IMG/VR virus record: IMGVR_UViG_3300023174_000767
Span: 1 to 20,131 of that record
Strand: one strand, 5' to 3'
DNA: 20,131 nt
Source: a virus
Of the stretch, positions 3 through 20,131 are shown piece after piece. Under the pieces are notes generated by a model. That model was given only the letters and a program-made list of their open reading frames with translations. It was not told the DNA's origin and did no database searches. The position numbers and the translations under genes are program-made. The stretch's first letter is position 1. Each line of letters opens with the position of its first letter.

Positions 3-3000
3 GGTATTTTAGCATCACAATATAATACAGCTTTTAATCAACCAACAGGAACTTATACAGATAAGCAGGGATATTATATTGTTCAAGGTGATGTCGCCTA
101 TGCAAGAAATACTGGACATCCAATGGTATATGGTTGCACAAATTCTACTAAAATTTATCCATATACCGCAAATGAACCATCGCTGATTCTTCCAGGATAT
201 GGATTTTTAAATGAAGTAGATAAGTATAAAACAAAAACATATGAAATGTGGCTAAGGATAAATTCTTCTACATTATCAATGAAAAGAATCATGGGTCCAG
301 TTTTTGGAAATGATGGATTATATGTTGATGCAGCAAACCTAATTCTTAAAGTAGGAACATATTTTATTTCACATTATGTTGGTGAATGGGATAGACTAAT
401 GCTTGTTCAAATAATAACATCTAAGGATGGCATTCAAATGTTTCTTAATGGTGATGTTATTGGAAATATTTCTTACGCTGTAAAGGACATACCTTTTTCT
501 GAATATTATTATCCAACAACCTTAGATAATAAAATTATTAACTCTAATTTTGAAAATCATAACTCGGGTTGGGGAACAAGAAATGGTTCAAATGCTCGTT
601 CTACTGGTGATTCTTTTATAGGGTCTGCATCAATTCTTTATACTGTTGGCTCTACTGGAACAACTGGTGGTATTAATACAGTAACAACCCCAACAACAGT
701 TGCTATTACTGCTGTTACTCCAAGTTCTCCATCTGTTGGATATGTAAAATATACAGGAAATAATATTTATTCCGTAGGCGATACTGTAACAACTTCTCTG
801 CTTGCACCAGCTGGATATAATGGAACATTTACTGTTACTGAAGCAACAGAGACATATTTTGTTGTTGCTAATGCTACAACTACAACCGTAACAGATGGTG
901 TAGGTTCTTCTTCATCTACAAGCACAAAACTAATTCCAATTTCTCCTGGAAATACATATACATATTCTATCTATATGAAAGATGTAAATACAGGAAAACA
1001 ATATAACAATGTAATAGATTATTATAACTCATCGCTAGGTTTGATTTCTGGAAGCTCATCTATTGGACCAGCAACAACAATTTCGTCTTCAGATTGGACA
1101 AGAGTAACTTATACTTTTACAGTTCCAGAAACTGTTGGAACATCTCCAACTGTTCCAGCATATGCAAGACCTTATACATATTCAAACACAACATTTGCAG
1201 TAGGTGATTCTGGAAAAACTGTGTATTATGATGGGGCATTATTCCAACAATCTACATTAGCTAATCCATATGTTTATAAAACACCAGCATCAAATATAGA
1301 ACAAGACTGGATAGGCTTTTATGCTCATTCCGATGTTTCATTAGAGGTATCTTGTGTTGCTGTATATAATTATGGAATTACAAAATCAACAGCTTTATCT
1401 AGATTTTCTTATGGTCAAGCAGTAGGTTTTCCAAAAGATGTAGTATCTGCTTATTCTGGTTCAGCAATTGTTCCAGATTATACTCTTGCAAAATATGCTA
1501 ATAATCAAAATTATGGAGTGTCACAATCTAATACTTGGAAAAGTGCAGTAACAAATAATAATTTTATTATAGACAAGGATACACTTTCAACACCAAATTA
1601 TACTTTGCCAATAATTGAGATAGAACCATCTAGCACATTAACTCAAACAGATATGCTAAATGCATTATCATCAATTAATGCAACGTACTTTGACCTTCAA
1701 CCAAACAGTACTTGGAACGGAATAGAGTCAAGAATATCTTTTAACAACTTTAAACAAATTTCAAATGATATTGATATGTTCTATACAGTATTTGATAAAT
1801 CAGAAAATAACACAGACACTAAGCAAATTATTTTTCAAATTGTAGATATAAATAAACCTAAAAATTATTTAGAAGTATCTATTTTAAACAATACTCTTGG
1901 ATATTATTTTTACTACAATTCAGATACCGCTTCAACGCTTGCAACTTTTAGTGCATCATCACTAAACACTAAATATGCAGCTGCAATAAATATTACAAAT
2001 TTAGTTACAAAAAATTCAAATTTTTCAAAGTTTTTTGCCAATAGAGAAAATCTAAAAATTTATGTTGGCGGTTCAAAAGATTTTACAGACGACCAAACAT
2101 TTACTGGAAAAATATACAGAGTTGGTTTTGGCGATTTAAGAAACTATGGCAAGGTATCTTCATCATTTAATCCTGATGGATACTATTCAACTATAACAGC
2201 AGGAAACTTAAACACACACATTGCAAATTATACTCTTTTATTAAATAATGGTTGGAGTGGACAATCATTTATGGATATTGCAGTAAATTCATATTGGCAA
2301 GATATTGTTCCTCTAAGTCGTCTTGCAAAAACGGTAGATGGTCAGTATAGACTTGATTACCTACAGTTTAATGTTGACTATCCAAATCAAATAGATGCTA
2401 CAAGTGCAGATACTAAAACATATCTAACTTTTCAAACTGGCGGAAACCCAGATATCACAACATTTGCAAACACAACAATTGTTGGAACAGATAGATATCT
2501 AAATATTACTAGTGCTTGGACAAATACTAAATATCAAGTAACTGATGGAACAGTTGTATACATACCAACAAATGTTTCATCTAGTACATTAACGCTAGGA
2601 ATTCATATAGAAACAAACAGTCCTGGAGTTATTATGAATCCGACCAACATAAGACATTTACAAATTGCTGCACAAGCAATTGGTTCAAGTACAACAATTG
2701 GAACAAACGGAGATGAACTTATTTCTTTTGGAGCAGGAAATAATCCTATACTTATTTCTAAGTCTAATGACCCATATTACTATTTAACATCACAGTCTGG
2801 ATTTAGGGTGGTAGGAACAAATGCATCAACTAGGGGATATTATTCAAATATAAATAAAGACAAGTATGATGATTTTAGTATTGGTGCTATTCAATTTTCA
2901 GCAAAGTTTCCATTAACACAATTTGCAAATACTGAAACATTAATGTTTGAATTAGAAAATGTTGATGATTCAACGAAGGTAAAGTTTTATGTAATTGGAG

Positions 3001-3536
3001 AAACATCAGCTTTGACTAGAGGTAGAATTTATGCCAAAGACCAATCTGGAGCAGTATACACAAGCTTAAAGTATTATCTAAATGGTGTAGAGGTAGATAG
3101 AGCGATTGTTTCTGTAGATGAATGGTTTATGCTAGGCATTAAGTTTACAACTGATTATAGCCTTAACTCAAAAGCTGGAAAGTTTAACTTCTCTGGTAAA
3201 CAATTAATAAATCATTTTGAGTATTTTCAACCAAACTCAAGTCAAAGAAATTCACCAATATACATATATCCAAAATGGATTAATGTTAGATATTCTGCAA
3301 CTGCATCAAAAATATGGAATGACTATACTGCATTAACTTGGCAAGATGTGGCAACAAGTCCAGCAACATCAGTATTTGTTGGTACAAACCCATCAAATAT
3401 TCAGGAAGTATTTTCAGGAACAGGTAAAAATATTGTTGGCAACGATTATAACTATCCATATCTAATACCACAATCGTTCTCATATAGAGCATTTATGGCA
3501 ATAGAGACTACCACATCTGACGCAATACTTCTATAA
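3..3536 (+). CDS. Large LamG/carbohydrate-binding-like tail or fibre protein, 5' partial
   Basis: The frame is open from base 3, 40 codons before the first in-frame ATG at 123, so the real start lies left of the window; 1177 residues are visible. Nucleotides about 225-527 read like the first part of a LamG/concanavalin-like domain (KTYEMWLRI, then MFLNGDVIGNISY), and its last strands seem to resume at about 1293-1420 (DWIGFYAHSDVSLEVSCVAV). Between them, 528-1292 resembles a CBM4/9-type carbohydrate-binding domain (NSNFENHNSGW, SDWTRVTYTFTVP, YYDGALFQQ), itself interrupted by a beta module at 705-905. A further LamG-like stretch lies near 2880-3220 (YYLNGVEVDRAIVSVDEWF). No signal peptide or membrane segment is seen. 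A virion-surface, glycan-binding tail or fibre role is inferred from domain type and context. It is unusual to find it directly upstream of the portal. The domain calls are by eye; the protein's exact place in the virion is unknown. Confidence 0.7.
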   Translation, partial: GILASQYNTAFNQPTGTYTDKQGYYIVQGDVAYARNTGHPMVYGCTNSTKIYPYTANEPSLILPGYGFLNEVDKYKTKTYEMWLRINSSTLSMKRIMGPVFGNDGLYVDAANLILKVGTYFISHYVGEWDRLMLVQIITSKDGIQMFLNGDVIGNISYAVKDIPFSEYYYPTTLDNKIINSNFENHNSGWGTRNGSNARSTGDSFIGSASILYTVGSTGTTGGINTVTTPTTVAITAVTPSSPSVGYVKYTGNNIYSVGDTVTTSLLAPAGYNGTFTVTEATETYFVVANATTTTVTDGVGSSSSTSTKLIPISPGNTYTYSIYMKDVNTGKQYNNVIDYYNSSLGLISGSSSIGPATTISSSDWTRVTYTFTVPETVGTSPTVPAYARPYTYSNTTFAVGDSGKTVYYDGALFQQSTLANPYVYKTPASNIEQDWIGFYAHSDVSLEVSCVAVYNYGITKSTALSRFSYGQAVGFPKDVVSAYSGSAIVPDYTLAKYANNQNYGVSQSNTWKSAVTNNNFIIDKDTLSTPNYTLPIIEIEPSSTLTQTDMLNALSSINATYFDLQPNSTWNGIESRISFNNFKQISNDIDMFYTVFDKSENNTDTKQIIFQIVDINKPKNYLEVSILNNTLGYYFYYNSDTASTLATFSASSLNTKYAAAINITNLVTKNSNFSKFFANRENLKIYVGGSKDFTDDQTFTGKIYRVGFGDLRNYGKVSSSFNPDGYYSTITAGNLNTHIANYTLLLNNGWSGQSFMDIAVNSYWQDIVPLSRLAKTVDGQYRLDYLQFNVDYPNQIDATSADTKTYLTFQTGGNPDITTFANTTIVGTDRYLNITSAWTNTKYQVTDGTVVYIPTNVSSSTLTLGIHIETNSPGVIMNPTNIRHLQIAAQAIGSSTTIGTNGDELISFGAGNNPILISKSNDPYYYLTSQSGFRVVGTNASTRGYYSNINKDKYDDFSIGAIQFSAKFPLTQFANTETLMFELENVDDSTKVKFYVIGETSALTRGRIYAKDQSGAVYTSLKYYLNGVEVDRAIVSVDEWFMLGIKFTTDYSLNSKAGKFNFSGKQLINHFEYFQPNSSQRNSPIYIYPKWINVRYSATASKIWNDYTALTWQDVATSPATSVFVGTNPSNIQEVFSGTGKNIVGNDYNYPYLIPQSFSYRAFMAIETTTSDAILL
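705..905 (+). repeat. Inserted beta module, copy A
   Basis: This codes a 67-residue Thr/Val/Gly-rich segment starting ITAVTPSSP, with core motifs VGDTV, YNGTF and YFVVAN. A gapless hand alignment with copy B (19846-20046) gives 38 identities in 67 positions. Similarity is mainly at protein level, with short DNA matches only, so the copies are not recent. It interrupts a carbohydrate-binding-like domain. Confidence 0.75.
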
Positions 3537-3538
3537 TA

Positions 3539-3547
3539 TGGTATACT
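3539..3547 (+). promoter_or_regulatory. Extended -10 promoter, leaderless layout, for the 3554 gene
   Basis: TGGTATACT has an extended TGN followed by the -10 hexamer TATACT at 3542-3547. Exactly 6 nt separate it from the ATG at 3554, so transcription would begin at or beside the start codon. There is no Shine-Dalgarno before that ATG. A second TATAAT overlaps the preceding stop codon at 3532-3537. No convincing -35 is present (CTGACG at 3517 is a weak match). Confidence 0.5.
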
Positions 3548-3553
3548 ATTGGT

Positions 3554-3943
3554 ATGAGAAAACCAGAACAAGAACCAATGGACGCTATGGAAAGAGCGTT
3601 AGCTAGTGCTAAAATCCAAGTAATTGAAAAAAACTATGACTGGGGTCTATATGTTTGGATTAGAGAAAATGGCAAGCCATTTCTTGATGAAGATGGAAAT
3701 ATCCTAAACATACCTTCTAAAAAGAATGACCCAGCACAAATTGCAAAACTTAAAGATGCAGCAACATATTGGGGAGAGCCAAATGGTAAACCAATATTTT
3801 ATCCTGGTCTTGGAAGAATTTCAGACGAAGAGCACAGTGAGCAGATAGACAGAATGAAACAAGGCTTTATTCCAAACCTAAATGACCTTGGTGCTGTACA
3901 GGCAGCGAAAGACACAATTGCCCTATACGGAGATGAAGAATAA
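3554..3943 (+). CDS. Small conserved-looking protein of unknown function upstream of portal
   Basis: This codes 129 residues. The product is soluble and charged, with no signal peptide or membrane helix. The N-terminal third is helical in character, followed by NYDWGLYVWIRENGKPFLDE, which looks like a short beta hairpin; a middle part holds ATYWGEPNGKPIFYPGLG, and the C-terminus is acidic. I do not recognise the family. The start has no Shine-Dalgarno but sits 6 nt after a -10 box, which supports leaderless translation from this ATG. Its stop codon overlaps the portal start by 1 nt (TAATG), so the two are probably translationally coupled and the protein may act in early head assembly. That role is inferred from position only. 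Confidence 0.75.
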   Translation: MRKPEQEPMDAMERALASAKIQVIEKNYDWGLYVWIRENGKPFLDEDGNILNIPSKKNDPAQIAKLKDAATYWGEPNGKPIFYPGLGRISDEEHSEQIDRMKQGFIPNLNDLGAVQAAKDTIALYGDEE

Positions 3944-5550
3944 TGGAAGAATACGAATACAGAATTCCTGCATCGCTATCAGAACTTGAAGAAGAGCGTA
4001 ACCAGTTTACAGAACAAGACCCATTTAATAAAACCTGGGATGATGTAAAAGCCTTTAATGGTCTAGATACAAATTTTAAAAGAAGAACTACTCGTTCATT
4101 TACTAAGGCAGAGCCAACAGCACAATATATTGATAGTGCTATGGGAATTAGTTCTGGTATTGGTGGAGCACAGTCAAAAGAGATTAATCCAGGAACAGTA
4201 TTTAGAAATGCCTACGGTCTATTTGACGTAATCACACCACCCTGGAACCTATTTGAACTTGCAAACTACTATGATACATCATTTGCTAACCACGCTGCCA
4301 TTGATGCAAAAGTAGAAAATATTGTTGGTCTTGGCTATATGTTCCAAACCACTCGCAGAACTATGATGATGTTAGAATCATCAAACAATGAATCTGCTAC
4401 AGAAAAAGCTCGCAAGCGTATCGAACGAGCCAAGGTAGAAATGAATGACTGGCTAGAATCACTAAATGATGAAGACTCATTCACAAACACTATGATGAAG
4501 GTATACACAGATGTTCAGTCAATGGGTAATGGATATCTTGAAATTGGTAGAACCACCACAGGAGAGATTGGCTATATTGGTCACATTCCTGCTGTAACAA
4601 TGCGTGTTCGTAGACTCAAGGATGGATACGTTCAGATTATTGGAAACAAAGTTGTTTACTTCCGTAATTTTGGAGCAACCAATGCAAACCTAATTACTGA
4701 CGACCCACGCCCAAATGAAATTATTCACTTCAAGGAATACTCGCCACTAAATACATACTATGGTGTTCCAGATATTATTTCTGCAATTACTGCACTACAA
4801 GGTGACCAGTTGGCTTCACAGTATAACATTGATTACTTTGGCAACAAGGGTGTTCCTCGCTACATCATTACTCTAAAGGGTGCAAAGCTATCGTCTGATG
4901 CCGAAGACAAGATGTTTAGATTCCTACAGACAAGTCTAAAGGGGCAGAATCATAGAACACTATATATTCCACTACCAGGAGATACAGAAACCAACAAGGT
5001 TGAGTTTAAAATGGAACCTGTTGAAAATAGTGTTCAAGAAGCTTCATTTAATGAATACAGAATTCGTAACCGTGATGATATTCTTGTTGCTCACCAAGTT
5101 CCACTTTCAAAAATTGGTGGTGGCGATGCAGGAGGAGTTGCAGCAGCATTAGCACAAGACCGAACATTCAAAGAGCAGGTAGCAAGACCAGCACAAACAT
5201 CACTAGAAAAGATGATTAATAGAATAGTAAAAGAAAAGACAGACCTTCTAGAATTTAAGTTTAATGAACTTACACTTACAGACGAAGTTGCTCAGTCACA
5301 AATTCTTGAGCGTTATGTTAAGACTCAAATTATGGTTCCAGATGAAGCTCGTGAAATTCTTGGTCTTGCACAAAGACCAGATGGAGATGGAGCAACTCCT
5401 ATGGAACTTACCTCAAGACAAGCAACTGATGCTCGTGCTAACCTAGCAGGTAACAGAGCAAGAGATGCAGAACGAGCAAATAATGCTTCTGATAGCACAA
5501 CCACCACCACTGGAAGAAATGCCCAGGGTGAAGGTAGAGCTTCAAATTAA
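3943..5550 (+). CDS. Portal protein, HK97/PBSX-type
   Basis: At 535 residues it is within the usual size of phage portals, which form the dodecameric ring at one capsid vertex for DNA passage and connector docking. Recognisable portal features are NIVGLGYMFQTT from residue 126, the wing/stem region GNGYLEIGRTTTGEIGYIGH, EIIHFKEYSPLNTYYGVPD with the Y-G-V-P turn at residue 273, SQYNIDYFGNKGVPRYI, and the later RNRDDILVAHQVPLSKIGG, typical of the HK97/PBSX portal branch. The C-terminal 50 residues are Ala/Asn/Thr-rich and probably disordered. It overlaps the 129-residue gene by 1 nt and lies just upstream of the protease, the normal head-module order. Confident from motifs and context. Confidence 0.92.
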   Translation: MEEYEYRIPASLSELEEERNQFTEQDPFNKTWDDVKAFNGLDTNFKRRTTRSFTKAEPTAQYIDSAMGISSGIGGAQSKEINPGTVFRNAYGLFDVITPPWNLFELANYYDTSFANHAAIDAKVENIVGLGYMFQTTRRTMMMLESSNNESATEKARKRIERAKVEMNDWLESLNDEDSFTNTMMKVYTDVQSMGNGYLEIGRTTTGEIGYIGHIPAVTMRVRRLKDGYVQIIGNKVVYFRNFGATNANLITDDPRPNEIIHFKEYSPLNTYYGVPDIISAITALQGDQLASQYNIDYFGNKGVPRYIITLKGAKLSSDAEDKMFRFLQTSLKGQNHRTLYIPLPGDTETNKVEFKMEPVENSVQEASFNEYRIRNRDDILVAHQVPLSKIGGGDAGGVAAALAQDRTFKEQVARPAQTSLEKMINRIVKEKTDLLEFKFNELTLTDEVAQSQILERYVKTQIMVPDEAREILGLAQRPDGDGATPMELTSRQATDARANLAGNRARDAERANNASDSTTTTTGRNAQGEGRASN

Positions 5551-5555
5551 AAGTG

Positions 5556-5564
5556 TGTTACAAT
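5556..5564 (+). promoter_or_regulatory. Extended -10 promoter candidate upstream of the protease gene
   Basis: TGTTACAAT lies just after the portal stop and has one mismatch to the TGTTATAAT boxes at 8101 and 12884. It would give a leader of about 35 nt. A second possible -10, TATAAT at 5592-5597, is 9 nt before the ATG. The weak inverted repeat ATACC...GGTAT (5574-5592) lies between them. Confidence 0.4.
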
Positions 5565-5606
5565 AGAATAACAATACCTATAAAAAGGGTATATAATTAA
5601 GGTAAT

Positions 5607-6884: not shown

Positions 6885-6896
6885 ATCAAATTCACT

Positions 6897-6904
6897 AGGA
6901 GGTG
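6897..6904 (+). promoter_or_regulatory. Strong Shine-Dalgarno of the major capsid gene
   Basis: AGGAGGTG lies 6 nt before the ATG at 6911, near-perfect complementarity to the 16S 3' end. It decides the start: the in-frame GTG at 6902 is part of this site, so the longer reading is not the real protein. Confidence 0.85.
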
Positions 6905-6910
6905 AAAATT

Positions 6911-8035
6911 ATGTCGGAAGAAATTATTATTAATAAAAACTATCCAGGTTCAGGTGGTTACACTGCAGCAGAAGTAAATGCTCAGGGTGGCTTTGCATCT
7001 GGAAACATTGGTGGTGTAACAAGCCCAGGTCTTTCAGTCCTTGGTAACATCCCAACAGCTCAATATGGTGTGACAACTGGTTCTAACGCAGTTGACCCAT
7101 CACGTGAGCTAAACCCAACATTCGCTGGTGCTGGTATTCTACGTCCTGAACAGGCTCGTAGATTCATTGAGTACGTTTGGGATGGTACCGTTCTTGCAAA
7201 AGATGGTCGTCGTGTCACAATGCGAGCCAACATCATGGAACTTGAAAAGGTTAACGTTGGTGAGCGTGTTATCCGTGCTGCCAACCAAGGTGACCCAACC
7301 TACACAAACGCTGGTGCTACATTCAGCAAGGTTGAACTTACTACCAAAAAGATTCGTCTTGACTGGGAAGTATCATCCGAAGCTCTTGAAGACAACATCG
7401 AAGGTGCTGCTCTTGAAGACCACCTAGTTCGTTTGATGACACAGGCTTTTGCCAATGACATCGAAGACCTAGCAATCAATGGTACAGGTACAGGTGCGAA
7501 CAACTTCCTTAACATTCTGGAAGGTTTCGTAAGCCGTACAAAGACTGATGGTTGGGCACACGAATACGTTGCTACAGTTGCTAACAACGCATTCACACCA
7601 GAAGTACTACAGCAAGTTGTTGACCGCCTACCACGTAAGTATCGTGCTCTAAAGACTGGTCTAAAGTTCTACGCAGGAACTTCAGCATTCCAGGGCATTG
7701 TACGTCAGAATGGTACCGCTGCAAACAACATTTGGTCATACGAATATCGTAACGCTTACTTGGATGGTAACAACCAGGTTCTAGGCGATGCTCGTACTAC
7801 TCGTGTACTAGGTATTCCTGTCATGGAAGTTCCTTACTACCCAGAAGGCTTCGTTGACCTTACCTTCCCAAGCAACCGTATTTGGGGTTTCCAGAGAGAC
7901 ATCACTGTAAACCGCTTCTACGTAGCAAAGAAGGACACCATTGAATACACCGTATTTGTACGTTTTGGTATTCAGTGGGAAGAGCAGGACGCTATCGCAT
8001 ACGTTGACAGCGACTCAATCGACTCAAGCCTATAA
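6911..8035 (+). CDS. Major capsid protein, HK97 fold
   Basis: This codes 374 residues from the ATG at 6911. It follows the protease, carries the strongest ribosome site in the window and ends at a strong terminator, as expected for the most abundant virion protein. HK97-fold features are the spine helix and surrounding strands (KIRLDWEVSSEALEDN, then ANDIEDLAINGTGTG), the A-domain-like TPEVLQQVVDRLPRKYR, GTSAFQGIVRQ, VLGIPVMEVPYYP, and a C-terminal strand series (VNRFYVAKKDTIEYTVFVRF). The first 70 or so residues are Gly/Ala/Ser-rich and could be a flexible arm or a delta-like region removed by the protease; no cleavage site can be assigned. Codons favour AAC, GAC, TAC and CGT more than neighbouring genes, consistent with high expression. 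Confidence 0.92.
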   Translation: MSEEIIINKNYPGSGGYTAAEVNAQGGFASGNIGGVTSPGLSVLGNIPTAQYGVTTGSNAVDPSRELNPTFAGAGILRPEQARRFIEYVWDGTVLAKDGRRVTMRANIMELEKVNVGERVIRAANQGDPTYTNAGATFSKVELTTKKIRLDWEVSSEALEDNIEGAALEDHLVRLMTQAFANDIEDLAINGTGTGANNFLNILEGFVSRTKTDGWAHEYVATVANNAFTPEVLQQVVDRLPRKYRALKTGLKFYAGTSAFQGIVRQNGTAANNIWSYEYRNAYLDGNNQVLGDARTTRVLGIPVMEVPYYPEGFVDLTFPSNRIWGFQRDITVNRFYVAKKDTIEYTVFVRFGIQWEEQDAIAYVDSDSIDSSL

Positions 8036-8054
8036 TCTTGAGTTAACCCATTTA

Positions 8055-8088: not shown

Positions 8089-8100
8089 GGTTCATTAATC

Positions 8101-8124: not shown

Positions 8125-8499
8125 ATGTCAGAAGAAAAAATCACCCAGGTTGAAAAAACCGCAAATGAATTTGGTATTTCTGTTTCAAAAATTGAAGCGG
8201 TAGAAGAAGGCAATGTAGTAATCACCATACCAAAGAAAAAGACTAAGCCAAAGGCTTCAGCAGAAGCAGTAATAAATGACACTATTGGTGCCACTATTGA
8301 AAAAGAAGAACCTAAAAAGGAAGCACCTAAAAAACAAAAAGTTGCACTATATTCTAGTAGAAATGTTTTTTGGGAAGGTGTAGGAGAAGTTCAGCGTGGT
8401 TACAATTTTGTAACACCAGAACAGGCAGATATGTGGGTTACAAGAATTCACATTAGGATTGCCACACCAGATGAAATTAAAGAGGTTTTTGGTAATTAA
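8125..8499 (+). CDS. Small protein downstream of capsid, unknown function
   Basis: This codes 124 residues. The N-terminal 50 are acidic to mixed and may form a small alpha/beta unit (TANEFGISVSKIEAV). Then comes a Lys/Glu/Pro-rich linker (KKKTKPKAS; KEEPKKEAPKKQK) and a compact C-terminal domain from about residue 72 (VALYSSRNVFWEGVGEVQRG ... ATPDEIKEVFGN) that looks beta-rich. Small proteins with a C-terminal domain of this type often follow the capsid gene in actinophage-like genomes, but I cannot assign a function; a head accessory role is only a guess. The start has GGAGG at 4 nt spacing. The stop overlaps the next start by 1 nt (TAATG). Confidence 0.75.
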   Translation: MSEEKITQVEKTANEFGISVSKIEAVEEGNVVITIPKKKTKPKASAEAVINDTIGATIEKEEPKKEAPKKQKVALYSSRNVFWEGVGEVQRGYNFVTPEQADMWVTRIHIRIATPDEIKEVFGN

Positions 8500-9707
8500 T
8501 GGAAATCATTAAGGTAAATTCTGGAACAACACAAAGCACAACAGGCTGGACATACAAAAATTTTGCAACAAATAAATTTGTATTTACAATAGATTTTCCA
8601 GATAGCTTTAGTGGGTCTACTGCATATTTGGTAGTAACAGATATGCTTGACTTTAGTATTGTTTATGAAATAGGTTGGACTAGGGCTTCATTTAATGGAA
8701 TTGATGTTGTTGTTCCACTTAAATATGATGCAGACTATAAGGTTCAGGTTTATTCTGGAACAAGTGCTATTCCAAGTAATTTATTTTTTGAGGACTACTA
8801 CGAAGTTCGTAGACCATATGTAGACCCCACCACAAAATCAACAGTAGCAAGTGAAGTAGCCAAATATAAAGACCAAGAAGCACTAGCACGAGCAATTGTT
8901 GACTCTATTGTTACAGATGGATTTTATTATAAAAGACACCTAATTAATACTCTTGGTTTAGGTAATGATTATCTTGCTGTTTGGGATAACCTAAAAAGAG
9001 TTATTGCTTTATATGAAAACAATGTTCTTGTTTATAAAGATGAAGACAATATTGAAATTACAGGATTTTGGGATGCTAACCCACCCTCAAATAGCAATCT
9101 TGGTCTAAAAACACTTAGTAAGTTAGATTATTCTGTAGGAGATATTGTTACAATTCAAGGTTCAACCAATCTTGACGGAACATATACTATATATGAATTA
9201 TTAGAAAATGCTGGATTGTATGGACTTAGACTTGCAGGTAAAACTATAACATCTGCACAAGTTTCTGCAGAGGCTAAATTTGGTTCTGTTAAAAAATATT
9301 GGACATCTCAATATGTATTCACGCCAGACCAAACTGCATTAACCTTAGACTATACTGGTGAAATAAATAGAAGAGAATCAACTCCATCAATTTTTCCAGC
9401 TGGTTCCTCAGACTATATTGGTCTTATGTACGGTGGTCGTGGATTTGCTGCTGGTAACGACTATACAATTATTGGTGAAGATGGATACCTAATGGTCCCA
9501 TCTGACATTAAGAGAGCAACTGAAATGATTATTGACGACATTGAATGCGGAAGACTTGACTATTATAAAAGATACATCAATGCCTACAATACTGACCAAT
9601 TTGATGTTAAGTTTGATACTGCTGTTTTTGAGGGAACAGGAAATATTCTTGTAGATAAGATTTTATCTAAATACTTCAAGACTATTACTCACCCAGGGGT
9701 GTTGTAA
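8499..9707 (+). CDS. Head-tail adaptor/connector-like protein
   Basis: This codes 402 residues, long for an adaptor. Residues 1-110 look like a beta sandwich (FVFTIDFPDSFSGSTAYLVV). Residues 110-160 carry a helical YVDPTTKSTVASEVAKYKDQ segment. Residues 185-264 hold the beta module shared with two other genes. The C-terminal 100 residues (VPSDIKRATEMIIDDIECGR ... ILVDKILSKYFK) have the helical pattern of gp6/gp15-like adaptors, which bind the portal ring and extend the DNA channel. Position between capsid and closure genes supports this. The core helical part is therefore split by extra beta domains. Start and stop both overlap neighbours by 1 nt. Function is assigned by context and pattern, not by a firm family match. 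Confidence 0.65.
   Translation: MEIIKVNSGTTQSTTGWTYKNFATNKFVFTIDFPDSFSGSTAYLVVTDMLDFSIVYEIGWTRASFNGIDVVVPLKYDADYKVQVYSGTSAIPSNLFFEDYYEVRRPYVDPTTKSTVASEVAKYKDQEALARAIVDSIVTDGFYYKRHLINTLGLGNDYLAVWDNLKRVIALYENNVLVYKDEDNIEITGFWDANPPSNSNLGLKTLSKLDYSVGDIVTIQGSTNLDGTYTIYELLENAGLYGLRLAGKTITSAQVSAEAKFGSVKKYWTSQYVFTPDQTALTLDYTGEINRRESTPSIFPAGSSDYIGLMYGGRGFAAGNDYTIIGEDGYLMVPSDIKRATEMIIDDIECGRLDYYKRYINAYNTDQFDVKFDTAVFEGTGNILVDKILSKYFKTITHPGVL
9051..9290 (+). repeat. Inserted beta module, copy C (divergent)
   Basis: Residues 185-264 of the adaptor-like protein (start IEITGF) contain DYSVGDIVTIQG, then LDGTYTIYELLE and YGLRLAG. These follow the same VGDxV / GTYTI / aromatic-x-hydrophobic order as copies A and B. 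Only the core pattern is conserved, so homology is likely but not certain. Confidence 0.5.
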
Positions 9708-12107: not shown

Positions 12108-12124
12108 AAATAACTTAATAGTTG

Positions 12125-12160
12125 AGGCTCCCCTAACTTCGGTTGGGGGAGTTTCTTTTT
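12125..12160 (+). terminator. Intrinsic terminator after the major tail protein gene
   Basis: The stem arms are 12128-12137 and 12142-12151, closed by a C(TTCG)G tetraloop at 12138-12141. There are about 10 base pairs with one G-T wobble, extendable by wobbles, followed by a T-rich tract to 12160. It uses the same tetraloop as the terminator at 8055. Confidence 0.92.
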
Positions 12161-12168
12161 GCTATAAT
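12160..12168 (+). promoter_or_regulatory. Extended -10 promoter, leaderless layout, for the long chaperone
   Basis: TGCTATAAT, with TATAAT at 12163-12168, begins on the last T of the terminator. Exactly 6 nt separate it from the ATG at 12175 and there is no Shine-Dalgarno, so the transcript should start at or beside the start codon. Spacing equals that at 3542-3554. Confidence 0.6.
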
Positions 12169-12174
12169 AGATAC

Positions 12175-12870
12175 ATGGCTACTAAAATATATGAATCAGG
12201 ATTTATACAATTAATTGATGGAACAGTTTTACACATTAATCCACTCAAGATAGTTTATCTTAGAGATTTTATGGATGAATTTTCCAATTTTGGAAAAGCT
12301 CAATCAGAAGAAGAAACAATGGATATTTTACTTATTTGTGGAGCAATCGCAATGAGACAATACCATCCACAAATAGCAACAAAAGAATTGCTAGAAGACT
12401 CAATAGATATGGATACTTTATATGACCTACTAGATTTTTCTGCAGGTATTCAGTTAAAGAATAAAGAAGAAACACAAGATACTCCACAGAAACAGGTATC
12501 AGACAATCCACCAACATGGGAAAATATGGACTTGGCAGCACTTGAATCAGAAGCATTTTTGCTGGGTATTTGGAAAGACTATGAAGAATTAGAATCCTCA
12601 TTATCATTACCAGAACTAATGAGTACACTAAATGCTAAGAGAGACGCAGACTATGCTGAAAAGAAATTTCTTGCTGCTATCCAGGGTGTAGACCTAGATG
12701 AACAATCTGGTAAAAATAATGAACCAGATGCATGGGAATCAATGAAGGCTAGAGTATTTAGTGGTGGAGCAACAAGTGACCCAGATGATATCCTAGCACT
12801 ACAAGGAACAAATGCACAAAAAGCTGGATTCGGTATTGGTATGGGACTAGCTTATGAAAAGTGGGACTAG
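12175..12870 (+). CDS. Tail assembly chaperone, long (GT-like) form
   Basis: This codes 231 residues. Residues 1-95 are paralogous to the next gene (DGTV, PLKI, LRDFM, IAMRQY and LED shared; about 42 identities in 95 by hand alignment). After a Gln/Pro/Thr-rich linker, residues about 129-175 (LGIWKDYEELESSLSLPEL, then a helix with LNAKRDADYAEKKFLAA) have the pattern of the T region found in frameshifted chaperones. In lambda-like phages, G and GT chaperones coat the tape measure and recruit tube subunits, and GT arises by -1 frameshift. Here GT-like is encoded in one uninterrupted frame. Expression probably starts leaderless from the -10 box 6 nt upstream. The role is well supported by synteny directly before the tape measure. 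Confidence 0.8.
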   Translation: MATKIYESGFIQLIDGTVLHINPLKIVYLRDFMDEFSNFGKAQSEEETMDILLICGAIAMRQYHPQIATKELLEDSIDMDTLYDLLDFSAGIQLKNKEETQDTPQKQVSDNPPTWENMDLAALESEAFLLGIWKDYEELESSLSLPELMSTLNAKRDADYAEKKFLAAIQGVDLDEQSGKNNEPDAWESMKARVFSGGATSDPDDILALQGTNAQKAGFGIGMGLAYEKWD

Positions 12871-12883
12871 TCAATCTGTTTTA

Positions 12884-12892
12884 TGTTATAAT
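12884..12892 (+). promoter_or_regulatory. Extended -10 promoter for the short chaperone and tape measure
   Basis: TGTTATAAT (TATAAT at 12887-12892) lies 13 nt after the long chaperone stop. It matches the 8101 box exactly. The leader of about 20 nt carries AGGAGG at 12907-12912, 4 nt before the ATG at 12917. Confidence 0.55.
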
Positions 12893-12916
12893 TGTTTATA
12901 ACCTATAGGAGGCAAA

Positions 12917-13237
12917 ATGGCAACCACCATTAACGAAGCAAAAGAAATCACTCTGCCAGATGGAACAGTTATTACTGTACGTCCACTCAAAATTTCTCTT
13001 CTACGTGACTTTATGAAAAAATTCACAAGCATTGAAGAAGTTGCAGAAGATAACGATAAATCAATGGATATCCTCATGGAATGCGTAAGCATTGCAATGC
13101 GTCAGTACAAGCCAGAATTGGCTGAAGACCCATCAAAGCTAGAAGATATTTTAGACCTACCAACCGTATATCAAATTATTGAAGAAGCATCAGGCGTAGC
13201 CCTAGGCGGAACTCAATTTATCGGTGGTAAAAACTAA
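12917..13237 (+). CDS. Tail assembly chaperone, short (G-like) form
   Basis: This codes 106 residues and consists almost entirely of the G-like domain shared with the upstream gene (LPDGTVITVRPLKISLLRDF; SIAMRQYKPELAE; LEDILDLPTVYQII). It has no T-like extension. In tail assembly the short form is normally made in large excess over the long form. A separate promoter and a perfect AGGAGG ribosome site, compared with the leaderless long gene, would provide such an excess here. No productive slippery site was found at its 3' end: a -1 shift would meet a stop after about 16 codons. The gene lies 18 nt before the tape measure. Confidence 0.8.
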   Translation: MATTINEAKEITLPDGTVITVRPLKISLLRDFMKKFTSIEEVAEDNDKSMDILMECVSIAMRQYKPELAEDPSKLEDILDLPTVYQIIEEASGVALGGTQFIGGKN

Positions 13238-13255
13238 TAAAAGAGGTAATAATGA

Positions 13256-16200
13256 ATGTCTGATTTCGAGTCCAAAGTAAGAATTGATATTGATGCTAGT
13301 CAAGCACTAGCACAAATCAAACTTCTTCAAAGACAGATTTCAGACTTTCATTCCTCAATGGCTAAGGGTAGTGCTACAGCCAATCTAAAATCACTACAAA
13401 TGCAACAATCACTAGTTGACACAATTAATGCAACTGGTCAATATTCAGCACAGATGAAAACTGTTGCATCATCCACTCAAGCTTTTACAACATCACTTGA
13501 AAAGAATAAATTATCTCTAAACCAGTATTTTAAGTATGCTGGTGGTGCTTCCAGAAGCTTTGGTAAATTCTTTAAAACAGAAATGGATACCATTCAAAAA
13601 GTAGCCATTGAAAGAGTCAAGGACCTACAGACTCAATATATTAAAATGGGTCGTGATGCAAATGGTGCTCTTAAAACAATTGCTGTTAGACCACTTGCAC
13701 TTGACATGGAAAACCTGTCAACTAAAACACAGATTGCTGCACAAAAGCAACAACTTCTAAACCAACTATTAAAACAAGGCTCTACTAATCTTCTAAATTT
13801 TGGTAAGAATACTCAATGGGCAGGTCGCCAGCTTATGGTTGGTTTCTCTATTCCACTTGGTATTCTTGGAGCATCCGCTGCTAAAACATTTATGGAAATG
13901 GAAAAGCAAGCAGTTTCATTTAAGCGTGTTTATGGAGATACATTCACAGCATCTGCTGAAACAGATAAGATGCTTAAACAGGTCAAAGACCTAGCATCTG
14001 AATTTACTAAATATGGAGTTACAGTAGAAAAAACTATGGAGTCTGCTGCTAAAGCAGCTGCTACTGGTAAAATGGGGGCAGACCTACTTGCTCAAGTATC
14101 AGAATCAACACGCCTATCAGTATTAGGTAACGTAGAACAACAAAAAGCACTAGAGACAACAATCTCCCTAACAAATGCTTTCGGAACATCTGCTGACGAA
14201 CTTCGTGGAAAAATTAACTTCCTAAACGCAGTTGAAAACCAAACTGTAACATCTATTGAAGACCTGACAACTGCTATTCCAAAAGCAGCACCAGTTATCA
14301 AGCAACTTGGTGGCAACGTAGAAGACCTGTCATTCTTCCTTACAGCAATGCGTGAAGGTGGTATCAATGCATCTGAAGGTGCCAACGCTCTAAAGTCTGG
14401 TCTTGCATCTCTTATTAATCCAACTAACAAGGCAAGCAAAATGCTTGAAGGTTTTGGAATTAATATTCAAAGTATTGTTCAAAAAAATAAGGGTGATGTA
14501 AAAGGTCTAGTTATTGATTTTGCTAAAGCACTAGATACACTAGACCCTCTAAATCGTGCTCGTGCTATTGAGCAACTATTTGGTAAGTTCCAATTCTCAC
14601 GTCTATCTACATTGTTCCAAAACGTAATTAAACAGGGTAGCCAAGCATCAAGAGTTCTAGAACTAACTAAACAATCATCTGCAGAACTTGGAATCCTTGC
14701 TCAACGAGAGCTTAATCGTATTTCATCATCACCAATGTATAAATTCCAAAAAGCAGTAGCTGACTTTAAAAAAGAACTTGCCCCTGTTGGTGAAGAATTT
14801 ATTAAAGCTGTTACACCACTTATTAAATTCGGTACAGATGTTCTTAAAGCATTCAATAATCTTGATGGCGGAGTAAAGCAATTTATTATTACAACTACAG
14901 GTGTTATTGCTGGTCTTGGACCAATTATGCTTATGACATTTGGTTTGATTGCTAACGGTGTCGCTAACCTTATTAAAGGTTTTTCTTTTGTAAAGAGTAT
15001 ATTTAATAAAACAACTACTGCTTCACAGGTTCTTGGTGAAACTACTGATTATATGACACAACAGCAAATTGAAGCTGCTGCAGTTGCTGCCTCATTAGAC
15101 CAGGTACACAATAAACTTACACAATCATTTACTGTAGAAGCAAAAGCAGTAGCAAACCTAGCAGCACAATATGAAAAAGCTATTTCTGCACAAGTTGCAT
15201 TTAGTGGTGTTGCTGCAAATGGAGGAAAAGGAAAGGCTAAAACAGCACCCAAAAAATACGCTAGTGGTATTTTTAGTGTTCCTGGTCCTAAAGGTGCTGG
15301 AGATATTATACCAGCAATGCTTTCTCCAGGTGAAGCAGTCATTCCTGCAAAACCTGCACAAAAGTATCGTGGTTTTATTAAAGGCATGATTGCTGGAAAT
15401 ATCCCAGGATTTAATAAAGGTAAAAAAGCAGACGAACCTTTATCAAAAAGACTAAAGGATAGAATGGATGAAGCTCCATCACATATTAAATCTCAAAAAC
15501 AAAAACATACATGGGCAACTAGAAACACGGAACTTGACATAATAAGAAAAGTTGCTAGACAACATGGTGTTAGCACATCTGGATTCTTTGAAACTCAATA
15601 TATGACAAATCACGCTTCTCACTTAGAAGAGTCTTCTAGAAGAGTAAATGTTGGAAGAGGACTTTATGAAAGAATAAAACAATGGTTTGCTAGAAACCTG
15701 ATGACCGACTTGGGGATTGTTAACAAATCGCTTCAAGATATATCTGGTGAGGGTTTTGGTTCTGGTTCAAGCAAGAAAAAAATCCGTGACGAAGTTATGG
15801 GTAATTCTAAACAAATGGCTAAAGAACTTGGAATATCTGAAAAAGAATTTAAACAAATTGCTAAAGATGTTCTTGCTGGAAAGCATATGACTACTCCAAA
15901 GTCTGCAGCCGTTGCAGCAAAAGTTTTGCGTGTAGCAGAAAAACAAGCAACTACACCACAGGCAAGAGCTAAGTATTCTGGAGCAGCAGGTGTTCTTGAA
16001 CATAGGACAGCCGATAAAAGTTCAAAAGCATTTTACAAAACACTTGATGACAGAGCATATGTTGAAGACGATAAGAAAAGACTTGCTGATGAAAAAAGAA
16101 GAATTGATAAAAAAATAGAAATTGTTAAAAATGCAACTGACGAAGAAGTTAAAAATCTTAAAGATAAAAGAAAAGCAATAGAAAAAGCAAAAGCAAAAAT

Positions 16201-19200
16201 AGATAATGAGGTTCAACAATCTGCTGCAAAAGCAGCAAAAGCTCAGGTATCTGCAAACAATGAAAAAGGAAAAACTGCTGGAAAACAAAAAAGGGCTGCT
16301 AAAGCCGAGGGTGCAAAAGCAAAAACAGAAGAAGCAAATGCTAAAAAAACAACTGCAGCAAAAACAAAACCAACACCAACAATTGCTGTAACAGAACAAC
16401 TTGGTAATGGAGTTACAAAAATAACAAAACCAGATGGGAAAGTTCAGTATAAAGTAAATAATAGATATGCCAATGCTGAAGTAGCACAATCACTAGTTAG
16501 TCAAGCTCCTGCATCTAAAAAAACAAGTAGATTTGGAAAAGTTGGTTCATTCCTTTCTAGAAGAGGTGTTCTTGGTGGAGCAGGTATGGCTGCTAGTATG
16601 GGTGGCAGTATGCTTGGTGGAGACATTGGAAATACTCTTGCAAATGTTGGAAACGCTGCATTTATTGCCGATGTAGGTAGAAGTTTTATTCCAGCAAAAG
16701 CAAAAGCAAAACTTGTTACATTTGGAGTAGAAAAGTTACTTCCAATACTCAAAAATCTTGCTCCAATGTTTTTAAAATTGGGTCTTGTGCTGACAGTAGC
16801 GACAACAGCATATGAAATATTTACAGCAAATGCTAAAAAACAAGCAGAAATTTCTAAAGCAGTTGTAGATACATTATCTATGAGTAAAGATAAATTAGAT
16901 AAAGTTAATGAATTCTTTGGAACAAATGCACAACTATCTGGTATTAGAACTTTGTCTGTTGCTGGCGAAGGTCAAACAGGAAAACAAGCAAGTCTTGCAG
17001 AACAGTTTAGAACAAGTGACCAATTCAAATCTCTTTATGGAGACCAGGCAAGCAAATTACGTGGAGCAACAGATAAGCAATTTGCAATAACAATGCAATC
17101 ACTAGCACTTGATTTATATGGTCAAGGTGTTGGTGCTGAACAGGTACAAATTATTGTTGATGCTATTAAGAAAGAAGCTCAAAAAACAAACGTTGTTATT
17201 AAGTTTAAAGATTTGACCTTAGATACAGAAACAGGAAGACAAAATCTAGCTAAAAGTATCAAGGAAATTACAGATGGCATGGTAAAAGAACTTCAGTCTC
17301 AAAGAGATTGGCTTGGTCTTAACTGGTTAGCTTCTGCAAATATAGATGCATATACTTCACAACTAAGTGGATTTATTTCTGCACTATCTCAAGAATTTGA
17401 AAAAGGAAAAATTTCAGTAACTGAATTCCAAACTTCATTTAGTAGAATTGAACAAAGTTTTTATCAAGCAGAAAAGGCAAATCCTGGAGATGGACTTTCT
17501 TATTTAAATAATGTACTTCAAAAAACTAGTCCAGAAGTTGCTTTTGCTGCAGCAGGAATCACTGATTTAAATAATCAATTAATGGTTACAAAATTAGCTG
17601 CCAAGGGTGCTGCTATGAGTACTCAGTTGTTAGCAGATGTTGCAGCTGGAGATATCAATGCAATCGACTACCTAGATGATTTAAATAAACTTGAAGATAA
17701 AAAAAATAATGATACGATAAAGCAACAAAAGATTATTTCTGGCATAACTACACAACAAAAAAATCTTCAAAAACAAGAAACAGCAGTTAATAATTTATAT
17801 GATAAAAGAATTACTGCACTTGAAAGAATTGATTCGCTAAATCAATCAATTTCAGATAGACAAAAGGGACAACTTGATTTAGCAGATGCCCTTTCTCAAG
17901 GTGATGTATTCCGTGCTGCTCAAGCAATGCAACAAATTAGAGCAGATGAAGCTAAGGTTGCTCTAGAACAACAAAAAAATTCTCTTCAGGATGCAAGAGA
18001 TAAACAAACTGGTGCATTGCAAAATAAACAAGACAACCTAGACAGTGCTTTAACTTCTGCTCAATCTAAACTTAATGATATTTCCAATACACAAATGGAC
18101 CCATATGTATCAAAAATAAATTCAAAAACAATGGAACAGTTGTTTACTCAATATGGTTGGCTATATAAACTTGTAAATGTAAATCTGTGGTTTGCAGACC
18201 AAGATACAGTTAAAAAAGAATTTGGTAAATATGTATCAGGAAATAAAAAAATTGCAAATTCCGAAGACCCTTTAGGAATGTTTAAAGGCAAAAAAGGAAA
18301 TGTATTACCTAATGGTTTTGGTCCTGGTCATGCCGATGGTGGACATATCACAGGTCCAGGTAGTGGAACAAGTGATTCAATCCCTGCCATGCTTTCAAAT
18401 GGTGAATATGTTGTTAGAGCAAATGCTGTAAAGAATATTGGTGTACATACCCTTGATAAACTAAACCAAGCAGATAGAATGAACTTTGCTGATGGTGGAC
18501 TAGCAGGATTTAGACAGTCTGAACATAAAGTTCCTGGTAAAGAACGTTTTGGTCTTAATGATATTGCTGCTGGACTAGCCAACCCAATCATTCAAGGTGG
18601 AGCACAAGGCTCAGACGTTATGGGTGGTTTTGCAACTGCACAATCATATATGAATGTAGCTTCTGGTAAGGGAGGAGTTTTTGATTATCTAACCGCAATT
18701 CTTACACCATTTGCACTTACTGGATTTGGTGGAGCAAGTAAAGCAGGAATGTTTGGAAAGCTTGCGTCTAAATTACCAGGCGGTATAAAAGCAACAGCAT
18801 TAAATCAAACAGCAAGACATAGAAGTATTTTTCCAATTAAAGAAGTTTATCATCCACTAGATGTAGCAACTGAAAATGCTAAAACTTTTGGACCAGGAAC
18901 TTATTTTGGTAAAAATTCTAAAGTTTCTGGTAGCATTTTTAGAGACTTTGGAAATGAATCACATAAAATTACAACAACACCAAAAGCAGCCATAAAAACT
19001 TTATTTAGTAAAGGTTATGCAAACATAGAACAACTTACAGAAGAGTGGACAAAAAATAGCGGAAGAACATCTTATATCCAAAATTGGGACAAGCTTTCAA
19101 AAGAAAGTAAACAAAAATTTGTTATGGACCAACTAGATGGAATGACTTGGGATGACCCATTTATTCAAAACCTAATTGCTAAAGGTTATATTGGTTTTAA

Positions 19201-19735
19201 AAATGGAGATGCTTTGTCAAACTGGATGGTTGGTGTTCCAGGTTCTGGATATGGTCTAAAGCATATTCCTAACAAACTTCCAAAAGTTTCTGGAAAAGTT
19301 ACAAAAATAAATAAAATAGTACCAGGACTAATCGACCAAGGAAAGTCTCGGTCCCCATTTAATAATCCATTAATTTCACCAAGTAGAACTGGACAGGATT
19401 ATCTAATGGCTGCAAAAGCAACTGGAATAAATATAATGGACACAATTCCTCACTTTAAAAAGGGTGGTATGTTTCGTACTGGATATGTTGATGGCGGACT
19501 AGCACTTCTTCACGATAAAGAATTTGTTATGAATGCTGGGGCAGTTAAAGAATACGGTGTTGACAAGCTTAAAGCCATGAATAATGGAACATACAACAAT
19601 GGTTCCGTGTATAATAGTTATGGAGTAAATATCAATGTTGGTGGTTCTAATTCAAATGCCAGTGACATTGCACGAACAGTAATTAGAGAAATCAAAAAGA
19701 TTGATTCTCAACAAATTAGGAGCACTAGAATTTAA
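13256..19735 (+). CDS. Tail tape measure protein, multi-domain
   Basis: This codes 2159 residues, among the longer tape measures. It sets tail length and takes part in DNA delivery. Residues 180-400 match the TP901-type core (WAGRQLMVGFSIPLGILGAS; TTAIPKAAPVIKQLGGNVED; FFLTAMREGGINASEGANAL). Hydrophobic stretches lie at about 543-575 and 1163-1190, plus a Gly-rich segment at 1104-1142. Residues 720-930 are basic and unrecognised; 940-1060 is a Lys/Ala-rich coiled coil; 1470-1620 is another coiled coil. A Gly-rich motif ending in IPAMLSxGE-type sequence occurs at 668-704, 1692-1738 and, diverged, 2067-2110. Residues 1855-2005 resemble an ADP-ribosyltransferase-like fold. Start: the ATG at 13256 follows GAGG by 9 nt; an earlier ATG at 13252 opens only a 3-codon frame. 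By the usual ~0.15 nm per residue, the upper limit for the tail is about 320 nm; globular inserts would reduce it. Confidence 0.92.
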   Translation: MSDFESKVRIDIDASQALAQIKLLQRQISDFHSSMAKGSATANLKSLQMQQSLVDTINATGQYSAQMKTVASSTQAFTTSLEKNKLSLNQYFKYAGGASRSFGKFFKTEMDTIQKVAIERVKDLQTQYIKMGRDANGALKTIAVRPLALDMENLSTKTQIAAQKQQLLNQLLKQGSTNLLNFGKNTQWAGRQLMVGFSIPLGILGASAAKTFMEMEKQAVSFKRVYGDTFTASAETDKMLKQVKDLASEFTKYGVTVEKTMESAAKAAATGKMGADLLAQVSESTRLSVLGNVEQQKALETTISLTNAFGTSADELRGKINFLNAVENQTVTSIEDLTTAIPKAAPVIKQLGGNVEDLSFFLTAMREGGINASEGANALKSGLASLINPTNKASKMLEGFGINIQSIVQKNKGDVKGLVIDFAKALDTLDPLNRARAIEQLFGKFQFSRLSTLFQNVIKQGSQASRVLELTKQSSAELGILAQRELNRISSSPMYKFQKAVADFKKELAPVGEEFIKAVTPLIKFGTDVLKAFNNLDGGVKQFIITTTGVIAGLGPIMLMTFGLIANGVANLIKGFSFVKSIFNKTTTASQVLGETTDYMTQQQIEAAAVAASLDQVHNKLTQSFTVEAKAVANLAAQYEKAISAQVAFSGVAANGGKGKAKTAPKKYASGIFSVPGPKGAGDIIPAMLSPGEAVIPAKPAQKYRGFIKGMIAGNIPGFNKGKKADEPLSKRLKDRMDEAPSHIKSQKQKHTWATRNTELDIIRKVARQHGVSTSGFFETQYMTNHASHLEESSRRVNVGRGLYERIKQWFARNLMTDLGIVNKSLQDISGEGFGSGSSKKKIRDEVMGNSKQMAKELGISEKEFKQIAKDVLAGKHMTTPKSAAVAAKVLRVAEKQATTPQARAKYSGAAGVLEHRTADKSSKAFYKTLDDRAYVEDDKKRLADEKRRIDKKIEIVKNATDEEVKNLKDKRKAIEKAKAKIDNEVQQSAAKAAKAQVSANNEKGKTAGKQKRAAKAEGAKAKTEEANAKKTTAAKTKPTPTIAVTEQLGNGVTKITKPDGKVQYKVNNRYANAEVAQSLVSQAPASKKTSRFGKVGSFLSRRGVLGGAGMAASMGGSMLGGDIGNTLANVGNAAFIADVGRSFIPAKAKAKLVTFGVEKLLPILKNLAPMFLKLGLVLTVATTAYEIFTANAKKQAEISKAVVDTLSMSKDKLDKVNEFFGTNAQLSGIRTLSVAGEGQTGKQASLAEQFRTSDQFKSLYGDQASKLRGATDKQFAITMQSLALDLYGQGVGAEQVQIIVDAIKKEAQKTNVVIKFKDLTLDTETGRQNLAKSIKEITDGMVKELQSQRDWLGLNWLASANIDAYTSQLSGFISALSQEFEKGKISVTEFQTSFSRIEQSFYQAEKANPGDGLSYLNNVLQKTSPEVAFAAAGITDLNNQLMVTKLAAKGAAMSTQLLADVAAGDINAIDYLDDLNKLEDKKNNDTIKQQKIISGITTQQKNLQKQETAVNNLYDKRITALERIDSLNQSISDRQKGQLDLADALSQGDVFRAAQAMQQIRADEAKVALEQQKNSLQDARDKQTGALQNKQDNLDSALTSAQSKLNDISNTQMDPYVSKINSKTMEQLFTQYGWLYKLVNVNLWFADQDTVKKEFGKYVSGNKKIANSEDPLGMFKGKKGNVLPNGFGPGHADGGHITGPGSGTSDSIPAMLSNGEYVVRANAVKNIGVHTLDKLNQADRMNFADGGLAGFRQSEHKVPGKERFGLNDIAAGLANPIIQGGAQGSDVMGGFATAQSYMNVASGKGGVFDYLTAILTPFALTGFGGASKAGMFGKLASKLPGGIKATALNQTARHRSIFPIKEVYHPLDVATENAKTFGPGTYFGKNSKVSGSIFRDFGNESHKITTTPKAAIKTLFSKGYANIEQLTEEWTKNSGRTSYIQNWDKLSKESKQKFVMDQLDGMTWDDPFIQNLIAKGYIGFKNGDALSNWMVGVPGSGYGLKHIPNKLPKVSGKVTKINKIVPGLIDQGKSRSPFNNPLISPSRTGQDYLMAAKATGINIMDTIPHFKKGGMFRTGYVDGGLALLHDKEFVMNAGAVKEYGVDKLKAMNNGTYNNGSVYNSYGVNINVGGSNSNASDIARTVIREIKKIDSQQIRSTRI
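15257..15367 (+). repeat. Tape measure Gly-rich motif, copy 1
   Basis: Residues 668-704 of the tape measure contain ASGIFSVPGPKGAGD, then IPAMLSPGEAVIPAKPAQKY. IPAMLS and GE are shared with copy 2. Motifs like this are known near the ends of many tape measures. Confidence 0.75.
18329..18469 (+). repeat. Tape measure Gly-rich motif, copy 2
   Basis: Residues 1692-1738 contain ADGGHITGPGSGTSDS, IPAMLSNGEYVVRANAV and HTLDKLNQ. This is the fullest form of the motif. Confidence 0.8.
18818..19270 (+). other. ADP-ribosyltransferase-like region within the tape measure
   Basis: Residues about 1855-2005 contain EVYHPLD, then FGPGTYFGKNSKVSGSIFRD, then a helical part, and finally AKGYIGFKNGDALSNWMVG. 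The order recalls the H / GxGxYF...A..Y / GYDGI...E-type pattern of ART folds in phage proteins. The usual HGT is HPL here and no clear catalytic Glu is seen in the last strand, so it may be inactive or unrelated. It lies between copies 2 and 3 of the Gly-rich motif. Confidence 0.35.
19454..19585 (+). repeat. Tape measure Gly-rich motif, copy 3 (diverged)
   Basis: Residues 2067-2110 contain FKKGGMFRTGYVDGG, LLHDKEFVMNAGAVKEYGVD and KLKAMNN. It keeps the GG, E-x-V, A-V-K and (D)KL..(L/M)N positions of copy 2 but lacks IPAMLS. Confidence 0.65.
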
Positions 19736-20131
19736 TGACAGATAACTATGCAGAATATTTAAATGGTAGAAAGAAATATTCTCGTCCACAAGCAATGCTA
19801 TGGGCAAATAATTCTGGAACATTTTCAGTAAGAGAAGCATCAAACATTACTGCAGTTACTCCATCAAATCCTGCTGTTGGTAGTGTAAAGTATACTGCTG
19901 CTAACAATTTTGCCATTGGAGATTTTGTTAATATTAGTGGTCTTGCTCCAGATGCATATAACGGCACATATGCAATTACTGGAGTAAATCCAACATTTTT
20001 TGTTGTTACAAATACAACTACCGCAGGAGTTACAGATGCTATTGGTGTTGCTGGAAAAGCATCATATGTTCCAACTGGAACTGAAATTAATGCAGATAGC
20101 TCTTCTAATAACTTTATTATCCTATCTGATG
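19735..20131 (+). CDS. Minor tail protein downstream of tape measure, 3' partial
   Basis: The first 132 codons are visible, starting at an ATG that overlaps the tape measure stop by 1 nt (TAATG). The N-terminus (NYAEYLNGRKKYSRPQAMLW, then GTFSVREASN) and the part after the insert (ADSSSNNFIILSD) read like the start of a distal tail or tail-tip protein. Between them, residues 38-104 are copy B of the beta module seen in the left-hand tail gene. Gene order after a tape measure favours a distal-tail/baseplate role; the rest of the gene lies outside the window. The product name is therefore from context, while the reading frame and start are firm. Confidence 0.75.
   Translation, partial: MTDNYAEYLNGRKKYSRPQAMLWANNSGTFSVREASNITAVTPSNPAVGSVKYTAANNFAIGDFVNISGLAPDAYNGTYAITGVNPTFFVVTNTTTAGVTDAIGVAGKASYVPTGTEINADSSSNNFIILSD
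19846..20046 (+). repeat. Inserted beta module, copy B
   Basis: This codes 67 residues starting ITAVTPSNP, with IGDFVNISGLAP, YNGTYAIT and FFVVTN. It is 38/67 identical to copy A in the left-hand gene, without gaps. It splits what otherwise reads as a continuous minor tail protein N-terminus. Confidence 0.75.

Follow-up and report, generated by a model that had tools for sequence, protein, structure and literature searches.

A homologous beta-barrel cassette in loops of unrelated virion proteins of a lake-type tailed phage: likely copy spread and a putative role in glycan adhesion

Why should one small beta module occur in three different virion genes of a single phage, and is it a mobile decoration domain or an integral part of each protein that carries it? 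The question arises from IMGVR_UViG_3300023174_000767, a tailed-phage fragment of a lake-type phage, analyzed here over its whole length of 20,131 bp (the window). Since the window is the entire IMG/VR record, genes are cut at both of its ends. They run in the order tail-associated protein, small ORF, portal, protease, major capsid protein, small ORF, adaptor-like protein, three ORFs of connector/terminator size, major tail protein, two small related ORFs, tape measure and Dit-like protein, where "adaptor-like" and "Dit-like" are labels given by gene position. Among isolates, Streptomyces phages of the Karimac/Faust/Yaboi type come closest, the major capsid protein being ~40% and the Dit-like protein ~30% identical to theirs. 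The two adjoining ORFs before the tape measure (12175-12870 and 12917-13237) look like paralogues that share ...DGTV...PLKI..LRDFM... and IAMRQY.P, and are probably, to judge from their sequence, a duplicated tail assembly chaperone. The features discussed below are as follows.

3..3536, plus strand: host A, a large virion/tail-associated protein, open at the window edge (~1415 aa in sister phage G003)
528..704, plus strand: CBM_4_9-like domain, first part (PF02018 match with copy A removed)
705..905, plus strand: copy A, FCCH-like beta-barrel module, residues 235-301 of host A, nested in the CBM_4_9-like domain
906..1271, plus strand: CBM_4_9-like domain, second part, split off by copy A
6902..8035, plus strand: major capsid protein (context), similar to that of Karimac/Faust-type Streptomyces phages
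8499..9707, plus strand: host C, adaptor-like protein, 402 aa, after the major capsid protein in gene order
9036..9299, plus strand: copy C with linkers, 88 residues, at a beta-hairpin of host C
9051-9290, plus strand: copy C core, residues 185-264 of host C
13256..19735, plus strand: tape measure protein, without module (PhageMin_Tail, E = 5.9e-26)
19735..20130, plus strand: host B, Dit-like protein, after the tape measure; ORF cut by the window edge (298 aa in G003)
19822..20064, plus strand: copy B with linkers, 81 residues, in an N-terminal loop of host B
19846-20046, plus strand: copy B core, residues 38-104 of host B

The sequence-only reading had placed the modules inside their host proteins and not at the ends, and both the coordinates and the internal positions (residues 235-301, 38-104 and 185-264) proved right. 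As it had also reported, copies A and B are identical at 38 of 67 residues without a gap; they score 197 (BLOSUM62), while none of 500 shuffles exceeds 67, and their DNA is identical at 135 of 201 positions. Copy C, put forward as a divergent third copy, is marginal against A and B in pairwise comparison (scores of 55 and 50, with shuffle maxima of 56-58 and 46-52). An independent HMM was built from 36 inserts found at the C site in other phages, leaving out the window clade because circularity was to be avoided. This model matched host B (E = 7.9e-11), host A (E = 7.9e-7) and host C (E = 1.4e-6), found no match in the portal, major capsid, major tail or tape measure protein of the window, and reached a best E of 0.02 among 2100 shuffled decoys. 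Because it finds all three hosts, copies A, B and C are homologous, and the third copy, weak in pairwise comparison, is borne out. Single-protein Pfam scans of the unedited hosts recognized neither the module nor the carbohydrate-binding domain (CBM), tblastn with copy B gave no match in isolate phages, and a scan of cellular genomes with one single copy found no relative; a C-type copy used as query retrieved 14 records.

Structure prediction, one of the checks proposed at the outset, gave a single fold for B and an identical strand order for C in the predicted models. From a 61-row alignment of copies, AlphaFold2 modeled copy B with confidence (pLDDT 91, pTM 0.77) as a small beta barrel whose strands span 4-6, 15-18, 28-32, 41-48 and 52-55. 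Within a model of the whole of host C, itself of moderate quality (mean pLDDT 70), the insert has strands at 185-190, 200-205, 216-220, 227-237 and 240-246 (pLDDT ~83), flanked by the host's own strands (165-173 and 176-180 before, 263-266 and 270-274 after). The best Foldseek matches of the module in the PDB are E1 FCCH domains of UBA1/UBA6 (2v31, TM 0.63) and the beta-barrel domains of the endosialidases of K1F (1v0e, 3gvk) and phi92 (4hiz), with TM of 0.62-0.67. Matches to FCCH domains reach a probability of 1.00, mostly at TM 0.55-0.66 and with modest E values of at least 0.04, and the modeled barrel has the FCCH fold. An Ig fold was not recovered; the 50 PDB matches listed for the module include no protein with an Ig domain. 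A fold search with full host C returned diffuse beta-sandwich matches only.

Sequence profiles point to the same two families. With E up to 1 allowed, 28 of 61 copies are recognized by the Pfam family E1_FCCH (PF16190; best E = 3.3e-6), yet none of 25 records rises above its gathering cut-off and window copy B is not matched even at E up to 1. The endosialidase family End_beta_barrel (PF12195) matches 20 of 61 (best E = 0.0012), and the module profile aligns to the phi92 structure 4hiz at E = 5.3e-4 across the whole barrel (profile positions 6-66). The E1 FCCH domain (PF16190; 2v31, 2lzj) is the closest solved fold and gives the best Pfam profile, but the module lies below the curated cut-off and has no link to ubiquitin chemistry. 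With the endosialidase barrel (PF12195; 1v0e, 3gvk, 4hiz) it shares the fold and a sequence similarity that extends along its whole length and may reflect homology; in contrast to the single barrel of each endosialidase enzyme, many copies occur here, in hosts in which no enzyme domain was found. Predicted viral proteins with a similar fold bear names such as baseplate J-like, tail protein I, tip attachment protein J, Gp6-domain protein, major tropism determinant and "E1 FCCH domain containing", and because of these names we regard the fold as widespread in virion proteins. Three further cases were observed in passing. In a contig from an unrelated phage, one very long ORF (L036, 4273-12114) contains at least seven strong copies of the barrel module; the annotated major tail protein of Microbacterium phage A3Wally (L266, MZ150783, 796-1836) bears one copy; and Pantoea phage PdC23 (L267, 979-1851) encodes, right before the major capsid gene, a 290-residue protein annotated as "endosialidase", an annotation possibly due only to the common barrel.

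A search for homologues without the module, likewise suggested by the sequence-only reading, turned up empty sites in relatives of all three hosts. At site B, 59 of 68 distinct host cores are empty (5-28 residues between the flanks) and 9 are filled (80-87 residues); at site C, where the insertion point is a hairpin tip after YENNVLVY, 34 of 73 are empty (2-13 residues) and 39 filled (79-90 residues). No core at either site has 31 to 60 residues between the flanks. The closest empty relatives at B (L110, L113 and L114) are 76-80% identical in the best segment. Since relatives lack the copies at the exact spots, the module behaves as a movable add-on and, like other mobile virion domains, is a fragment common to unrelated proteins whose relatives do without it. 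In four loci (L109, L111, L112, L117) the copy in the B protein lies ~15 residues further downstream, and this shift therefore marks an independent insertion point, while in L119 and L121 another module type takes the place of the FCCH-like module at the B position. That other type is related to a second small module (TVTLTTGSTTNFAVGQTLTKNSGTGAFG...), seen in the L005 tail protein (~residues 965-1030) and absent in L006; like the barrel, this second module occupies sites of this kind in some phages and is missing from others.

Copy A interrupts another domain. With copy A cut out, host A is recognized by Pfam CBM_4_9 (PF02018) at E = 9.8e-6 (26.4 bits, cut-off 25.9 bits). In G028 (locus L274, 26800-31500) the same CBM_4_9-like domain is unbroken, module-free and 49% identical, but its place in the protein differs: it lies N-terminal to the part that comes before it in the window. 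Copy A has therefore been inserted into a domain that is mobile in its own right. In distant homologues of host A at more than 30 loci, residues ~168-432 (CBM and module) are missing altogether.

Further copies lie in the protein after B, of which sister phage G003 has four (T1-T4). T1 is common to L110, L113, L114 and L006, in which T2, T3 and T4 are cleanly absent. Phage G001 lacks T4 (225 bases), and its tail protein is 96% identical to that of G003 (1652 of 1729 aligned residues). The T3 copy of G001 is 86% identical to T3 of G003 and likewise to T4 of G003, and at 53 T3/T4-informative sites it alternates between T4-like and T3-like tracts in 6 runs, a number as low in 0 of 100000 shuffles, between flanks that are identical to G003 at 238 of 240 positions. 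In its sequence this mosaic looks like gene conversion between copies, with chimeric assembly as a caveat for metagenome contigs. Between the window and G003, DNA identity has a median of 95%, and many 200-base bins of the tape measure (window 15401-19600) fall to 53-77%, with indels. A special peak of divergence at A and B between these two phages was considered and set aside, since mosaicism extends over the whole region and neither copy leaves the ordinary range.

An alternative hypothesis is that the segments are ancestral, integral parts of their hosts that were lost in some lineages, their resemblance reflecting convergence of fold. A C-site insert that is common and old (39 of 73), with linkers in common with those of other phages, would fit this. 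We nevertheless consider it highly improbable, given sequence homology across different hosts, a copy A nested in a CBM that is found intact elsewhere, differing insertion points at B (L109, L111, L112, L117) and a T4 present in one and absent from the other of two near-identical phages. For A, B and T2-T4 the integral-part reading is contradicted; for copy C alone, ancestral presence with losses is possible.

Insertion of a movable module, the reading we prefer, has a recent and an older part. In a module tree of low resolution, built on a short alignment for which window copy C is too short, a single subfamily (support 88) unites A and B with T2-T4 and with the shifted B copies, and the C-site inserts form separate lineages. 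Five copies of this subfamily (A, B and T2-T4) occur in the window clade, and A and B thus represent a recent spread within that clade. Copy C is present in the window lineage, with its nearest host relatives empty; its insert shares linkers with C-site inserts of other phages, and its connection to them rests on these linkers. It is an older insert of its own site and not part of the recent spread of A and B. The idea of a mobile decoration domain accordingly stands as regards a discrete module, present or absent, in loops of unrelated virion proteins, but does not extend to copy C as a member of the recent spread. On host trees computed free of the insert, at least four changes of state are needed at C and at least five at B, counts that do not separate gain from loss, and well-supported branches force three at each site.

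The spread of the copies had also been described as old or diversifying. Between orthologous copies dN/dS is 0.19-0.36, and among A, B, T3 and T4 it is 0.35-0.54; both ranges therefore indicate purifying selection, contrary to diversification. These values bear on a further possibility, that the module is a neutral or selfish decoration spread by illegitimate and homologous recombination wherever insertion in a loop is tolerated. Such an explanation is suited by copies that are mosaic, by the cleanness of insertions in tolerant loops and by a site that holds more than one type of module (L119, L121). A dN/dS of 0.19-0.36, in contrast, implies selection keeping fold or function, although maintenance of the fold alone could suffice, and we judge neutrality decidedly unlikely.

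Beyond the established homology, common fold, clean presence or absence, repeated changes on host trees and DNA mosaic between copies, we consider an account in which a homologous barrel cassette is carried in virion-protein loops, spreads by copying and has a predicted role in glycan adhesion to be likely overall. In this account, a cassette of ~67 residues with the FCCH/endosialidase-barrel fold is spliced into loops, probably exposed, of virion proteins that are otherwise not related, namely, a tail-associated protein (inside its CBM), an adaptor-like protein and a Dit-like protein, and copies would spread by duplication and short-tract recombination, either between copies or between phages. 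Surface exposure is suggested by insertion at loop or hairpin tips, although copy C, in a connector-like protein, may be partly buried. The modules could then act as low-affinity, replaceable adhesion units that bind glycans of the host surface, with many weak modules adding avidity along the virion. We infer glycan adhesion because copy A lies within a CBM and because the K1F endosialidase barrel binds polysialic acid; by analogy, weak glycan binding is plausible. For immune evasion, the other role named by the sequence-only reading, the analysis gave no support. The K1F barrel, the one such barrel known to bind glycan, is one of three polysialic acid sites of its enzyme and a hotspot of host discrimination (PMC12632334).

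The main rival to adhesion is a structural role, in which the module is a spacer or stabilizer that widens or braces its ring or hairpin and has no ligand. The PDB fold search also matched the module to parts of two structural proteins, 9n71 from a phage tail tube and 9jlf from a head-tail interface, it occurs in major tail proteins of Microbacterium phages, and an inserted domain of the YSD1 tail protein stabilizes its ring (PMC8718954). However, very close relatives are module-free at every site, as expected of a dispensable decoration, and copy A sits in a carbohydrate-binding domain; we therefore regard a spacer as a minority possibility, somewhat unlikely but worth keeping in view beside adhesion.

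Promiscuous virion domains such as Ig-like domains and CBMs are already known; what is new here is the FCCH-like fold, nested and apparently gene-converted. In two accounts that cite Fraser 2006 (PMC10385173, PMC8718954), the phage Ig-like domains are small beta domains on many kinds of virion protein that are proposed to bind carbohydrate weakly. The module is likewise a small beta domain added to virion proteins, but by structure search its fold is not Ig, and it lies within loops, unlike the C-terminal Ig-like domains of the T5 and YSD1 tail proteins. In lactococcal and Lactobacillus phages, CBMs are inserted in a loop of the "evolved Dit" and in neck-passage proteins and are missing from relatives (PMC9692632). 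Such an inserted module, absent from relatives, is a close parallel, except that those CBMs are larger, whereas a 67-residue FCCH-like barrel of one subfamily occurs here in several proteins of one phage. An evolved Dit has its CBM in the galectin loop, and host B is Dit-like by its position after the tape measure. The BACON arrays of crAss-like phages, repeated candidate carbohydrate-binding tail domains spread by duplication and transfer (PMC6949934), are tandem in one protein, while the present copies are dispersed over several. Phage protein domain mosaicism in general involves fragments common to unrelated virion proteins, with ongoing gain and loss (PMC10684548); in this case it is resolved to a single cassette, for which there are several empty sites, a nested insertion and, inside one gene, mosaic tracts. 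A literature search of partial coverage found no paper on FCCH-like barrels as movable virion cassettes.

A widespread but unnamed phage domain is now tied to both the FCCH fold of E1 enzymes and the barrel of endosialidases, and in one phage group at least four proteins offer clean sites, filled or empty, at which a single decoration cassette can be compared. Including its nesting in a CBM and the mosaic between copies, this cassette system makes it directly testable how adhesion modules are added and moved without breaking assembly. We speculate, while holding it unlikely, that the dispersed copies form an interchangeable repertoire in which, within one phage lineage, recombination and gene conversion between copies pass adhesion barrels around from one kind of protein to another (connector, distal tail, tail tip, fiber). 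If so, the surface chemistry of the virion would be re-tooled without a change in the receptor-binding protein.
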